Shown here piece after piece: positions 14,408 through 20,251 of a stretch of 64,000 nt of DNA. The DNA is from Gemmatimonadota bacterium (GTDB lineage: Bacteria > Gemmatimonadota > Gemmatimonadetes > Gemmatimonadales > GWC2-71-9). How positions within the stretch are numbered: the stretch's first letter is position 1; every line of letters starts with the position of its first letter. Under the pieces are notes generated by a model, which was given only the letters and a program-made list of their open reading frames with translations, was not told the DNA's origin and did no database searches. Both the position numbers and the translations under genes were made by a program. The DNA is taken from positions 1 through 64,000 of the forward strand of contig JANYKV010000151.1 of NCBI GenBank assembly GCA_025358055.1. The letters run 5' to 3'.

Positions 14408-15868
14408 TTATCGAGAGATAGTTCGAATCCCGTCTAGGAAACTTCGTTGCGAGCGAAGGGGATCGCTCTGGCGCGACTTGGTTCGGGCGACTGAACGCCT
14501 ATGCGCTTCTTCCACCAAAAAGCCGGGTTCGGAAACCAAACGCCTTACTGTCACGGAATTCACTGTGACATCAACGAGGGCGGGATCGAACTGCACTCCC
14601 TTGTACTTTATGAGCTCAGCGACAACAGCCTCGAACGTCAGGGCCTTGCGATAAGGTCGATCTGTTGTCATCGCGTCAATCGTGTCAGAAATCATAATGA
14701 CTCTGGCCCCAAGTGGAATTGCATCCGCCACGACCCCATCGGGATAACCCTTGCCGTCCCATCGCTCATGGTGATGCTTCACGGCGCGTTCAACATTACC
14801 TCGAAAACTGGCAAACATGGCGACGAGTTCGGCGCTCTTGCCGGCGTGGGTCTTCATCACTTCCCACTCCTCCTGGGTCAGGCGGCCCTCTTTTTGGAGG
14901 AGCGGGGCGAACTCCGCGTGAATTTTTCCCACATCGTGCAGCAGCGCAGCGTTCTCTATTTCTTCAACGTGATCTAGATTCAAACCGTATTCGGTTGCAA
15001 TGGCTTGAGACATGGCGGCGACGCGACGACTGTGGCCCGAGGTATAGGGATCACGTGCCTCGATGGCTTTGACCATCATTGCGAGTTGCTCGCGAACGTT
15101 TTGTTCAAGACGTTCATGAGCCCTGTCCAACTCATCATACAGACTTTGGAGCTGATTCAGTTTCGCGTAGAATCGTTTCGCTGCGATAACGGGGACAAAA
15201 ACACCCAGAAACCCGAACCTCCCAGCCCCACCAAGTTCGTTGAACCTGATGTAAAGCCAAGCTACGACAATTGCGAGCGTACTGGAGAACACGTCATACC
15301 CGAGAACCCAAAGGGTGTTGGTACGCCACACCTCTCGGAAGCGCTTATCTGACGAAATCGCTATCGCCCCACTCACCATGAGCGAATTCGCCATAAAAAA
15401 TGTAAACGACCCAAGGAAGAAAGCCGGAACCTCAGGCAATACAGATCGAAGCGAGAACTCCGAACCCCCCAGGAGGTAGTGTGGGGGAGTGGTACCTCCG
15501 AGAGTTTTGTAGACCAAACTGGCAACAACAATAGAGATGATACTTTGCGACACGTTGAAGAGAAACTTGATGGCTGGTTTCCTGCGCAGAACCTGTGATA
15601 AAATGCTTGCAATCCCTGCCACGATCCCGGCCCAAAAAGCTCCGAACAGTAGGCCACCTGCAATGTGTGAGAGGAAAGCCAACGAACCGTCGGACTCCCC
15701 CCCACGCAGGCGAGTGCTCGCCAGCTCGAGGAGGAACGTAAGGGCAACTAACGCAGCAAGCCCCCAGAAGTCCGGTACTGGCGAGGCGATGGAGCTGGCA
15801 TACGCCAGCGCACAGCCAGCGCCCAACAGACTCAGCCACACGTAGAATTGTATGCGACGTTCTTTTGT
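14408..15868 (-). CDS. Membrane-anchored HD-GYP domain phosphodiesterase
   Basis: N-terminal multi-TM region; ALLHDVGKI, VKHHHERWDGKGYPDG; start at MTKERRIQFYVW. Confidence 0.9.
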   Translation of the reverse strand, partial: TKERRIQFYVWLSLLGAGCALAYASSIASPVPDFWGLAALVALTFLLELASTRLRGGESDGSLAFLSHIAGGLLFGAFWAGIVAGIASILSQVLRRKPAIKFLFNVSQSIISIVVASLVYKTLGGTTPPHYLLGGSEFSLRSVLPEVPAFFLGSFTFFMANSLMVSGAIAISSDKRFREVWRTNTLWVLGYDVFSSTLAIVVAWLYIRFNELGGAGRFGFLGVFVPVIAAKRFYAKLNQLQSLYDELDRAHERLEQNVREQLAMMVKAIEARDPYTSGHSRRVAAMSQAIATEYGLNLDHVEEIENAALLHDVGKIHAEFAPLLQKEGRLTQEEWEVMKTHAGKSAELVAMFASFRGNVERAVKHHHERWDGKGYPDGVVADAIPLGARVIMISDTIDAMTTDRPYRKALTFEAVVAELIKYKGVQFDPALVDVTVNSVTVRRLVSEPGFLVEEAHRRSVARTKSRQSDPLRSQRSFLDGIRTISR

Positions 15869-15905
15869 CATCGAGATCGGATTGGAGGAGCCCCGGCCCA
15901 AACAT

Positions 15906-15977
15906 TTACCAGTCTTGCTTCTCACCAAGGAAAATATTCGCAAGAATGTGAATGGCTGCTGCGAGCATTCTGATCAT
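15906..15977 (-). CDS. Putative 23-aa hydrophobic small ORF (leader peptide?)
   Basis: ATG...TAA encodes MIRMLAAAIHILANIFLGEKQDW, preceded by ttggaggggggtgacgctcATG (strong purine-rich SD); absent from the ORF track because of size. Confidence 0.35.
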   Translation of the reverse strand: MIRMLAAAIHILANIFLGEKQDW

Positions 15978-16172: not shown

Positions 16173-16922
16173 TTACGCCGGCCGACGCGCCTCCGTCCAC
16201 CGGTTGGTCGCATCTAAGACCGCGAACACCGCTGCTCGCTCCGGACTCTCGCGCATCTCCGCCGTCCCGGTGAGCAAATGGGACTCCCGCCCACCCACGC
16301 CCTGAATGGCCACAAAGACCACCGTCCGGTCAAACGCCTCCACAATCTTGGCGCCTTCGAGCGCCACAGAATGCTTCTCCAGCAAACGATCCAGCACCCC
16401 AACCGCCGAGCGGGCCGCTGCCTCGACCCGACCGCGCAACGTGTCGGGAGCCTCCTCCTCAGCCGTCTCCATTCGCCCGTTGCAGGAGAGCGTCACGGCC
16501 ACCTGGACGCGCTGTGGTCGCCGCCCCGGACCGAGCGTGAGATTCTCGAACAAGACCTGCCGTTGCATCGCCTTTTCTCGCACGGCACCCCTCTCGAGCG
16601 TCTCGATCGGCCGTACTTCCGCGGTTTGGGCAATGCTGATCTTTCGATGATCCACTTTGAGGCCGAGATGCGCCAGCAACGCCGATTCAATGTTCCGAAC
16701 CAGCTGCTTCGGCGCCAGCCCGGATTGGGCCAGAATGTGAATTTCGCTCACCTCACCGAGTGGTGTCGTCACCACCCGAGCGGAAAGGATCCCTTCGAGG
16801 GTCGTGAGCAGATTCTCCGCACGACGAACACCCCAGGGATCCGGCATAGCATCCGGCATGGCCCCAGAGGGCCGAGGGGGCGGCGCTGAATCTTGCGGTC
16901 GTACGGGGGTCGGTCCGCTCAC
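16173..16922 (-). CDS. Conserved-looking hypothetical protein, no family recognised
   Basis: 249-aa ORF directly downstream of the GGDEF fusion gene, same strand, coding-like composition. Confidence 0.65.
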   Translation of the reverse strand: MSGPTPVRPQDSAPPPRPSGAMPDAMPDPWGVRRAENLLTTLEGILSARVVTTPLGEVSEIHILAQSGLAPKQLVRNIESALLAHLGLKVDHRKISIAQTAEVRPIETLERGAVREKAMQRQVLFENLTLGPGRRPQRVQVAVTLSCNGRMETAEEEAPDTLRGRVEAAARSAVGVLDRLLEKHSVALEGAKIVEAFDRTVVFVAIQGVGGRESHLLTGTAEMRESPERAAVFAVLDATNRWTEARRPA

Positions 16923-16958: not shown

Positions 16959-18644
16959 TCACGCCACTGTGTTCCGGCCTGCTGCCTTCGCCTTGTACAA
17001 GGCGCGATCCGCATTCACCAACAGGTCGCCCGCTGTGGGTTGTGCGGGATCGTACTCCGCGATCCCGATGCTCACCGTCACCACACCCTCCGGATGCCCA
17101 AGGCGACGCCCCACGTGTTCAATCGCCGACCGCAGCACCTCAGCCACCCGCTCGGCACCGCTGTAATCGGTCCGGGTGAGGATCACCACGAATTCATCCC
17201 CACCATACCGCGCCGCGAGATCCGAGGCACGCACCGCCGTCCTGATCTCCGCAGCGCAGGCCCTCAGAACCTCGTTACCCGCCTCATGGCCGAACCGATC
17301 ATTCACTTCCTTGAGCCGATCCAGATCGAGAAAGAGGACCGTAAACCGGTCGTTGCTGCGCTTACTGCGTTCGACCTCGTGCGCCAGCCGATCCCGAAGC
17401 ACTCGAAAAGTCGCCAGCCCGGTCAGCAGATCCGTCGCGGCTGCGCGCTGGGATTCCTCCGCGCGGCGTGCTTGGTACGGCGAACACTGACGAAGGGAGG
17501 CCCGACCCTGTGCCGCCGCGCCCGCGAAATCGGCGCAGGTGGCGTACCCGCACGCCCGGCAGTCCCATGGCCGTCCATTCGGCCCCGGCCCGATCGTTTC
17601 CAGTAGGCCGGCCACCGCGGCGGGGTCCGCCGTGCTCTTGCGCGGGCGAATGTCGAACACCGCCCCAACGCTCATCACCACCCGTGCATCGACCACCGGC
17701 TGCCGGCTACGCGGCGGCTCGGTGCTCTGCACCAATGCCCGCCGCCAATACAGTTCCTCTCGCGGACCCGACAAGGGATGATCGAGCGACCCTTCGTAGG
17801 AAAGGATGTCGACGAACCCAAGGTCGAGTCGGTCGCCCGCTACGGCGCGCGATAGCGCTTTCAGGGCTTCCAATCCCCGGACCTTTCGGAAACGCCGGCT
17901 CGAGTACCTGGCTTCCTCAAGCATGGCCAGCGGAAGTCCGCCAGCCGCACTCACGTGGCGTCGTCGCTCTTCCGGAATCCGCGTATAGACGTTCGGCTGG
18001 GTCAGTGGATTCACATCCTTCAGCCTGAAAATTTCCGCAAGATCCTCGAAGGTCAACGATCCATCCACCTCACGGGGCCCGCCCATGGGACAAAGACCCG
18101 CATAGACGATCTTCAGCCTATCTCCGTATAGGCTACGCAGATAGCGTGCCTCGGCAACCACCGGAATCGTCACCGGAGCAAGGTAGGGGACCAACTCCGG
18201 ATAGTCGGTTCGGATTGCATCCACCACCACTGAGTCAGTGGAGCGAATCAAGGTGCCCCACGCCCGATCCGCCCAAAGGCGAAGGTACTCCATCGCGACC
18301 AATTCATCCCCGATGATGCCCCGGGTTACCATGGTGAAACCCGCGCTGTAACAGGCGTTCACGACCTGCTCAGGCGTCGCCGGATAGAAATGAGCCGCGG
18401 CCTCAGTGCCTAAAATTAGGACACCGCAGCCACTCTCAGCCACCGCAAGGGCCCGGCCGAGCTCCCCGGAGACCTCAATCGCATCATGCGGACACGAAGG
18501 AACACACAGGCCGCATTTGATGCATGAGTCCTCCAGGATCCGCACGACCGCGGCATCGGGGGAGACGGCGATCGCTTCTGCCGGGCATACCCGTGCACAG
18601 GCGAGGCAGGCCACACAGCGCTGCACGTCTACGACAAAATTCAA
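16959..18644 (-). CDS. Ferredoxin / [FeFe]-hydrogenase-like (degenerate H-domain) / 4Fe-4S (CxxCGYxxC) / GGDEF diguanylate cyclase fusion
   Basis: CVACLACARVCP and CIKCGLCVPSCP; hydrogenase large-subunit-like YPELVPYLAPVTIPVVAEARYLRSLYGDRLKIVYAGLCPMGGPREVDGSLTFEDL; DCRACGYATCADFAGAAAQGRASLRQC; C-terminal RASDLAARYGGDEFVVIL. Confidence 0.85.
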   Translation of the reverse strand: MNFVVDVQRCVACLACARVCPAEAIAVSPDAAVVRILEDSCIKCGLCVPSCPHDAIEVSGELGRALAVAESGCGVLILGTEAAAHFYPATPEQVVNACYSAGFTMVTRGIIGDELVAMEYLRLWADRAWGTLIRSTDSVVVDAIRTDYPELVPYLAPVTIPVVAEARYLRSLYGDRLKIVYAGLCPMGGPREVDGSLTFEDLAEIFRLKDVNPLTQPNVYTRIPEERRRHVSAAGGLPLAMLEEARYSSRRFRKVRGLEALKALSRAVAGDRLDLGFVDILSYEGSLDHPLSGPREELYWRRALVQSTEPPRSRQPVVDARVVMSVGAVFDIRPRKSTADPAAVAGLLETIGPGPNGRPWDCRACGYATCADFAGAAAQGRASLRQCSPYQARRAEESQRAAATDLLTGLATFRVLRDRLAHEVERSKRSNDRFTVLFLDLDRLKEVNDRFGHEAGNEVLRACAAEIRTAVRASDLAARYGGDEFVVILTRTDYSGAERVAEVLRSAIEHVGRRLGHPEGVVTVSIGIAEYDPAQPTAGDLLVNADRALYKAKAAGRNTVA

Positions 18645-18745: not shown

Positions 18746-20251
18746 TCAGGCCAAATTGTACTCTTTGATCTTCCGATAGAGGGTGCGCTCCCCGATTCCC
18801 AGCTTCTGGGCAGCCTGCCGGCGGTTTCCTCGGCACTCTTGCAAAACAGCAGAGATTGCTGCCTTTTCCACTTCTGCCATTGTCATGCCAGGTCGGTAAA
18901 CCACGCTTACGGGTACCGAAACCTCGGGCTCAAAGTCATCGGCCGAGATGGCGTGGACTTCCGGGACCTCGAGCACCTGCACCCGATTCGGCCGATCATC
19001 GAATCGACGGCGCAGCTCCTCGACCTGAAGCCGGAGATCCATCAGGCTTCGCAGGATGAACTCGAGTTCTTGCGTTGACGTCTCACGACCGGGCCGGCTT
19101 ACCAAAACCGGGAGCACCCCCGGCGAACCTTCGACGATGTCGGCCGGGATGTCCGAAGCCCGAATCTCCGTCCCGGGGGCCAACACTACCATCGACTCGA
19201 CGAGGTTCCGCAATTGGCGGACGTTCCCAGGCCACGGTGCATCAACCAAACGCTGAAGCGCTTCAGCCGTTATCCCCCGGAACGGGCGATCATGCAATTG
19301 GGCGAATTCCCGGATGAACCGCCGGAGCAGCAGGGGTATGTCTTCTTTCCGCTCTCGCAACGGCGGCAGATAGATCGACAGGACGTTTAGTCGGTAGTAC
19401 AGGTCGTTCCGAAACTCGCCGAGGGCGACCGACTCCCGAAGCGGCCGATTGGTTGCTGCCACCACCCGCACGTCCACTTTGATCGGCTGGCTGCCTCCAA
19501 CCCGGAAGAAGGTACGGCTTTCGAGCACCCGAAGTAGCTTCACCTGCGTACTCAGAGGAATCTCCCCGATCTCATCCAGGAAGATTGTGCCGCCGTCCGC
19601 CAATTCGAACCGTCCTAGCCGGCGCTCAGCAGCGCCGGTAAAGGCGCCCTTCTCGTGCCCAAAGAGTTCCGACTCCAGCAAGGTTTCGGGTAGCGCGGCG
19701 CAGGTAACGGCGATAAAAGCTTTCCCCCGGCGCGGGGAGAGGTCGTGCATTGCCTTGGCAACGAGCTCCTTCCCGGTTCCCGATTCCCCTTGGATGAGCA
19801 CTGTGCTCGTGACCGGGGCCATCAATTCGATCTTGACCAACACTTCCTGAATCGCCGAGCTTTGGCCACTGATGCCGGTTTGCTGTTGAAGACGGCGCCG
19901 GTCGGCCAAACGCCGCACCGTGGCGACGCCATCCTCGGGAGAAACCGGCTTCATCATTACCTGCGTCGCACCGAGCCGGTCGAGACGTTCCGTCCGTTCG
20001 GAGTCGGTAGGTTCGATCAAGGCGAGGGTGGAGATCTCGGCGTCATGAGCGTAGGCAGCGAGTTGAAACGCGAGCGGTTCATGTACGGCGCCCGTCAACA
20101 CCACCACGTCAGGATGCTCCCGGCGCACCGCAGCACGTTGGTCATCGAGGGGTGAAACGACGGCCGTCGTGAACCCCGCCGCTTCCAACGCCGCATTGAG
20201 CGGCACGGCCGTTTCGAGGTCGGCAAGCGTGAGGAGAATCTGTGCCGTCAC
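18746..20251 (-). CDS. Sigma54-interacting transcriptional regulator, NtrC family, with degenerate receiver-like N-terminus
   Basis: [30 protein letters not shown], Fis-type HTH (RGNRRQAAQKLGIGERTLYRKIKEYNL); the phosphoacceptor position reads VVVLTGA. Confidence 0.92.
   Translation of the reverse strand: MTAQILLTLADLETAVPLNAALEAAGFTTAVVSPLDDQRAAVRREHPDVVVLTGAVHEPLAFQLAAYAHDAEISTLALIEPTDSERTERLDRLGATQVMMKPVSPEDGVATVRRLADRRRLQQQTGISGQSSAIQEVLVKIELMAPVTSTVLIQGESGTGKELVAKAMHDLSPRRGKAFIAVTCAALPETLLESELFGHEKGAFTGAAERRLGRFELADGGTIFLDEIGEIPLSTQVKLLRVLESRTFFRVGGSQPIKVDVRVVAATNRPLRESVALGEFRNDLYYRLNVLSIYLPPLRERKEDIPLLLRRFIREFAQLHDRPFRGITAEALQRLVDAPWPGNVRQLRNLVESMVVLAPGTEIRASDIPADIVEGSPGVLPVLVSRPGRETSTQELEFILRSLMDLRLQVEELRRRFDDRPNRVQVLEVPEVHAISADDFEPEVSVPVSVVYRPGMTMAEVEKAAISAVLQECRGNRRQAAQKLGIGERTLYRKIKEYNLA

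Follow-up and report, generated by a model that had tools for sequence, protein, structure and literature searches.

The window, by which we mean the whole 64,000-nucleotide stretch of Gemmatimonadota DNA analysed here, carries a single open reading frame that fills positions 16959-18644 of the minus strand, begins with TTG and encodes a protein of 561 amino acids (P0001). Its parts and its conserved neighbours are as follows.

16959..18644, minus strand: P0001, Fer4x2 - H-domain - FeS - GGDEF protein, 561 aa (ORF, Pfam, AlphaFold model)
18474..18620, minus strand: two 4Fe-4S ferredoxin motifs, residues 9-57; Cys 10, 13, 16, 20, 41, 44, 47 and 51 (Pfam Fer4)
17802..18383, minus strand: [FeFe]-hydrogenase-like H-domain, residues 88-281 (PF02906, fold match to 9f46_B, domain-only profile)
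18234..18236, minus strand: Asp137, at the first H-cluster Cys position (TSCxP); Cys in four-Cys orthologues, Ser in families f7 and f9
18090..18092, minus strand: Cys185, at the Cys position of MPCxxK, the motif lysine missing (alignment with HydA)
17787..17798, minus strand: Tyr283-Glu-Gly-Ser286, at the last two H-cluster Cys positions; PCEGC in four-Cys orthologues
17478..17564, minus strand: C-terminal Fe-S module C362-x2-C365-x4-C370-x16-C387 (PF04060, residues 361-389)
16971..17441, minus strand: GGDEF diguanylate cyclase domain, residues 402-558 (PF00990, E 5.7e-43)
17190..17231, minus strand: I-site R472xxD475 and RYGGDEF 479-485 (conservation in 38 homologues)
16173..16922, minus strand: orf249, conserved partner gene, 249 aa, 36 bp downstream of P0001 (synteny in f1, f7 and f9)
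18746..20251, minus strand: sigma-54 activator (AAA and Fis HTH), the gene upstream of P0001 (domain search, synteny)
14408..15943, minus strand: candidate c-di-GMP phosphodiesterase of the MASE9-HD-GYP type (conserved neighbour in f1)

An initial annotation, made from the letters alone, had read this frame as two N-terminal 4Fe-4S motifs, a hydrogenase-like region, a CxxCGYxxC...C Fe-S module and a GGDEF domain with an RxxD motif. Profile searches agree with it part by part. Pfam finds both Fer4 motifs and assigns the Cx2Cx4Cx16C module to PF04060. The cyclase domain has the GG[DE]EF signature, the metal Asp, DxLTGL and RxxD, with R472xxD475 lying five residues before GGDEF at 481-485; D405, D440, N448, D449, R472, D475 and GGDE are invariant in 38 homologues.

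The middle region belongs to the Fe_hyd_lg_C fold family by both score and fold. PF02906 scores 37.8 bits against a gathering cut-off of 22.1 (E 2.2e-9), and residues 15-281 resemble [FeFe]-hydrogenase group B1 in NCBIfam at E 2.7e-21, well below that model's own cut-off. A profile built from the H-domain only (residues 72-330) picked up sensory hydrogenases from other lineages with E-values between 6e-6 and 4e-30, and a canonical HydA at E 0.011; none of 160 shuffled control sequences matched, which rules out a chance resemblance. An AlphaFold model built from 38 homologues has a mean pLDDT of 86.8 and a pTM of 0.61, so that the placement of the domains relative to each other is less certain. 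In Foldseek it matches the apo-[FeFe]-hydrogenase CbA5H (9f46_B) over 396 columns (E 1.1e-11, probability 1.00), with a TM-score of 0.44 by the length of a query that includes the GGDEF domain too. A sequence search of the PDB with the sensor profile returned mostly ferredoxins. In the model, a single short helix (388-403) connects the FeS module to the GGDEF domain.

What kind of hydrogenase scaffold is this? Group C/D sensory [FeFe]-hydrogenases share the motif Cx2Cx4Cx16C after the H-domain (PMC8163306), and the order Fer4x2 - H-domain - Cx2Cx4Cx16C is found in the putative sensory enzymes of both groups, C (M2f) and D (M2e) (PMC8163306, PMC13104023). P0001 has this order, with the spacing of C362, C365, C370 and C387 exact. 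Its hydrogenase scaffold is that of the group C/D enzymes, although the PAS domain that follows the FeS module in group C is missing and GGDEF starts directly at residue 402.

The initial annotation also held that the ligands of the H-cluster are lost, and alignment with true HydA and with sensory enzymes of the same phylum confirms it. The three stretches quoted there, RSTDSV, GLCPMGG and VDILSYEGSLDHP, line up with TSCxP, MPCxxK and CxGGC of a genuine HydA. The corresponding sites read TSCSP / MPCTAKK / TCPGGC in HydA, TTCP or TSCP / GPCIAKK / CCNGC in the sensory enzymes of family f10, and RSTDS / GLCPMGG / SYEGS in the window protein. One of four cysteine ligands is left. The lysine of PCxxK at the [2Fe] site is missing in P0001 and in its four-Cys orthologues alike, and is kept in HydA and in HydS of L102. 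The last motif is one residue shorter than that of HydA in most of the aligned proteins, and the pairing of its cysteines with HydA ligands is therefore uncertain by one position. Judged by the defining ligands in this alignment, P0001 is not an [FeFe]-hydrogenase.

The loss is shared. A genome scan, in which many of the genomes are MAGs, recovered 29 orthologues, all from Gemmatimonadota, 28 of them full length, at 56-75% identity. The sensor profile matched in 47 of the 55 genomes sampled from the window's family and, elsewhere in the phylum, in 10 genomes of f7 and f9, 17 of f2 (H-domain only) and two of f10. In the first set of orthologues, 13 have four cysteines (RSTCP, GVCxT, PCEGC) but no lysine, and 17 rows, the window's included, have Asp. 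In a tree of 62 rows, every Asp row falls in one clade of 27 that includes the window (support 100/100) and within which Asp137 is invariant; the four-Cys rows are paraphyletic, and Ser occupies position 137 in rows from the two other families, f7 and f9. At least two state changes are needed at this position. A private sequencing error or pseudogene can be rejected, since the Asp is common to 27 rows in one clade. Loss of the H-cluster ligands is specific to a clade, other orthologues having four Cys; in f7 and f9 the H-site has been lost too, with Ser in the place of Asp. The far outgroup f10 has Cys at the site, and the tree by itself does not separate gain from loss.

The f2 relatives (L105-L126; for example L107:5494-6801, L111:6114-7436 and L105:4773-6467) have no ferredoxin, FeS or GGDEF domain. 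They carry CSCPxV ... GxCPGA ... GCxC followed by a Pro/Arg-rich stretch, at most two to a genome; in L105 and L111 this stretch ends in a likely transmembrane tail.

While the H-site cysteines were lost in the window's clade, the eight ferredoxin and four FeS cysteines were retained. The eight ferredoxin cysteines are intact in the window protein and in 48 of 57 homologues, a count without the truncated L024 and the degenerate L101. Of 59 rows, 46 have the full set of twelve cluster cysteines; the exceptions mostly have one or two changes and are mainly four-Cys rows. Such family-wide conservation, with Fe-S and GGDEF residues intact, points to the sensor with c-di-GMP output that the initial annotation had proposed. 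Nine four-Cys orthologues (L025, L026, L036, L080, L082, L090, L092, L130 and L133) miss one ferredoxin Cys, 13 or 44, and some of them the first FeS Cys too; these might hold 3Fe-4S or labile clusters. The f7 cyclase L101:5677-7413 retains its H-domain and GGDEF domain and has lost most of its Fe-S cysteines, so the clusters are not strictly required in every lineage.

P0001 is the only PF02906 match in the window genome (93% complete), in which neither HydG nor a [NiFe]-hydrogenase was matched. Among 249 genomes of the phylum, credible HydG occurs only in G001 and G009, both of f10; the match in G104 is below cut-off, and G104 is without the cyclase. No sampled genome that carries the cyclase has a credible HydG. 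Nor does the cyclase track H2 metabolism, because in 29 of 46 genomes from the window's family no [NiFe]-hydrogenase was matched. Besides HydA-type genes, G001 and G009 have a sensory hydrogenase linked to a kinase. At both loci (L102:1380-7321 and L104) a HydA-type gene is directly followed by a sensor of the form Fer4-H-domain-FeS-HisKA-HATPase, whose ligands are canonical; HydG is nearby.

Across the window's family the gene order HslU-ArgF-GcvT-MogA-sigma54 activator (NtrC)-cyclase-orf249-HD-GYP is kept, and the cyclase-orf249 pair is also retained in five f7/f9 loci. The orf249 product, the most widely retained neighbour, matched nothing in Pfam or NCBIfam; the C-terminal half of its predicted model has a fold similar to the LeuA regulatory domain, a weak clue. 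The N-terminal part of the sigma-54 activator gave no Response_reg match.

From the domains, the ligand loss, the conservation, the synteny and the missing hydrogenase machinery observed here we infer a signal and an activity. With a probability of roughly 0.6, P0001 is an exapted, H2-blind diguanylate cyclase that responds to Fe-S redox state or O2 and whose ancestor was a sensory [FeFe]-hydrogenase similar to those of groups C and D. It is probably a cytosolic one-protein sensor. The broader proposal, on which we are evenly divided, is that H2-blind 'ex-hydrogenase' sensors form a class specific to this lineage, in which the H-cluster was lost stepwise and the scaffold became an Fe-S redox/O2 sensor driving c-di-GMP in Gemmatimonadota. 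The [2Fe] site would have been lost first and the cubane then lost separately, with Asp or Ser in its place.

How might a change at a cluster reach the cyclase? GGDEF domains work as dimers, and RxxD confers product inhibition on GGDEF enzymes. Three [4Fe-4S] clusters would assemble in P0001, and their redox state, or their damage by O2, would shift helix 388-403. Since the junction of FeS module and GGDEF domain is this one short helix, the shift would alter the geometry of a presumed GGDEF dimer and so switch c-di-GMP synthesis. Product inhibition through RxxD and removal of c-di-GMP by the adjoining HD-GYP protein would act as the counterweight. A signalling role of the C-terminal cluster is unproven, because in TamHydS H2 did not change the redox state of this cluster, and its alteration had little effect on catalysis (PMC13104023).

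The same clusters could serve other ends. It is unlikely that P0001 senses Fe-S or iron supply, with cluster occupancy, not redox state, switching the cyclase. The cluster ligands are indeed the conserved cofactor-binding features of the protein, and the conserved neighbourhood shows no specific electron partner; yet it holds no iron-regulation genes either, and the ferredoxin pairs are typical ones suited to electron transfer. We doubt still more that the clusters are structural or vestigial and that the H-domain binds a protein, such as the orf249 product, or a metabolite that sets the cyclase. The wide retention of orf249, with its LeuA-like predicted fold, and the loss of cluster Cys in L101 would suit that arrangement, but retention of all twelve in 46 of 59 members across large divergence argues against it. 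Very improbable, finally, is a metal site in the H-domain that still detects H2 or CO. The initial annotation had entertained gas sensing, and the homology to putative H2 sensors, the invariant Asp137 and the retained C185 would favour it; but three of four ligand cysteines and the [2Fe]-site lysine are gone, and the window genome lacks HydG and any hydrogenase, so we set H2 sensing aside.

The redox/O2-responsive cyclase that we favour differs from each known system that it resembles. Group C (M2f) proteins of the TmHydS type share its order, Fer4x2 - H-domain - Cx2Cx4Cx16C FeS - signalling output; P0001 lacks their H-cluster ligands and maturation gene, and GGDEF replaces the PAS, kinase, MCP or phosphatase of HydDB classes C1-C3 (PMC5037454). 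TamHydS of group D (M2e) shares the Fe-S/H-domain order and an Asp beside the first FeS Cys, but its H-cluster is functional and no output domain is fused to it. In HydDB, group C comes with kinase, chemotaxis and phosphatase outputs, and a cyclase appears only under [NiFe] group 2c (PMC5037454). That putative diguanylate cyclase-linked group is likewise a hydrogenase-type sensor with a proposed role in c-di-GMP control, although its [NiFe] fold is unrelated and its proposed input is H2. The eukaryotic Nar1/IOP1/CIAO3 is also hydrogenase-like without a [2Fe]H site and has O2-sensitive clusters (PMC12621388); unlike P0001 it works in Fe-S trafficking, has two conserved [4Fe-4S] sites and lacks GGDEF, and in the window's clade the cubane ligands are lost as well.

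The N-terminal module with interchangeable outputs is already known; what sets this variant apart is its coupling to c-di-GMP and its missing H-site. That known module, the clade-specific loss and the exact group C/D motif go beyond the initial annotation, which had suggested a survey of the architecture. We found the GGDEF form in Gemmatimonadota. In the phyla of a Desulfuromonadales, a Lachnospiraceae and an Acidobacteria locus, sensor homologues matched in 28 of 297, 146 of 300 and 28 of 247 genomes, respectively, and none of 89 homologues examined there, taken from among the best, has GGDEF. A widespread sensor-GGDEF architecture is thus not borne out; rare fusions elsewhere are possible, since 247-300 genomes per phylum were sampled and only the best-scoring homologues considered. 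The outputs found on homologues were kinase, sigma-54 activator, MCP or PAS. The open-access literature, outside which most subscription journals lie, yielded no protein joining GGDEF or a diguanylate cyclase to an [FeFe]-hydrogenase, and no c-di-GMP enzyme with an Fe-S redox input.

How sensory [FeFe]-hydrogenases relay their signal is an open question; one proposal, itself disputed, makes the C-terminal cluster the link (PMC13104023). The P0001 family offers a natural experiment, one scaffold with and without the H-cluster site and with an easily assayed c-di-GMP output. If our reading holds, signalling by accessory Fe-S clusters could be tested without H2 chemistry, and Fe-S redox input would be added to c-di-GMP signalling.

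Some further homologues deserve mention. In L141:166-2481 (Desulfuromonadales) a sensory hydrogenase module is fused to a sigma-54 activator with a Fis HTH; this protein is possibly a one-component transcription factor, an output outside HydDB classes C1-C3. L146, L147, L148, L149, L152 and L153 have four H-site cysteines and no [2Fe]-site lysine (TPCLAHM, TPCMAQ and similar), with a kinase output in L146 and L149, the two that were checked, and may be a further cubane-only sensor group.
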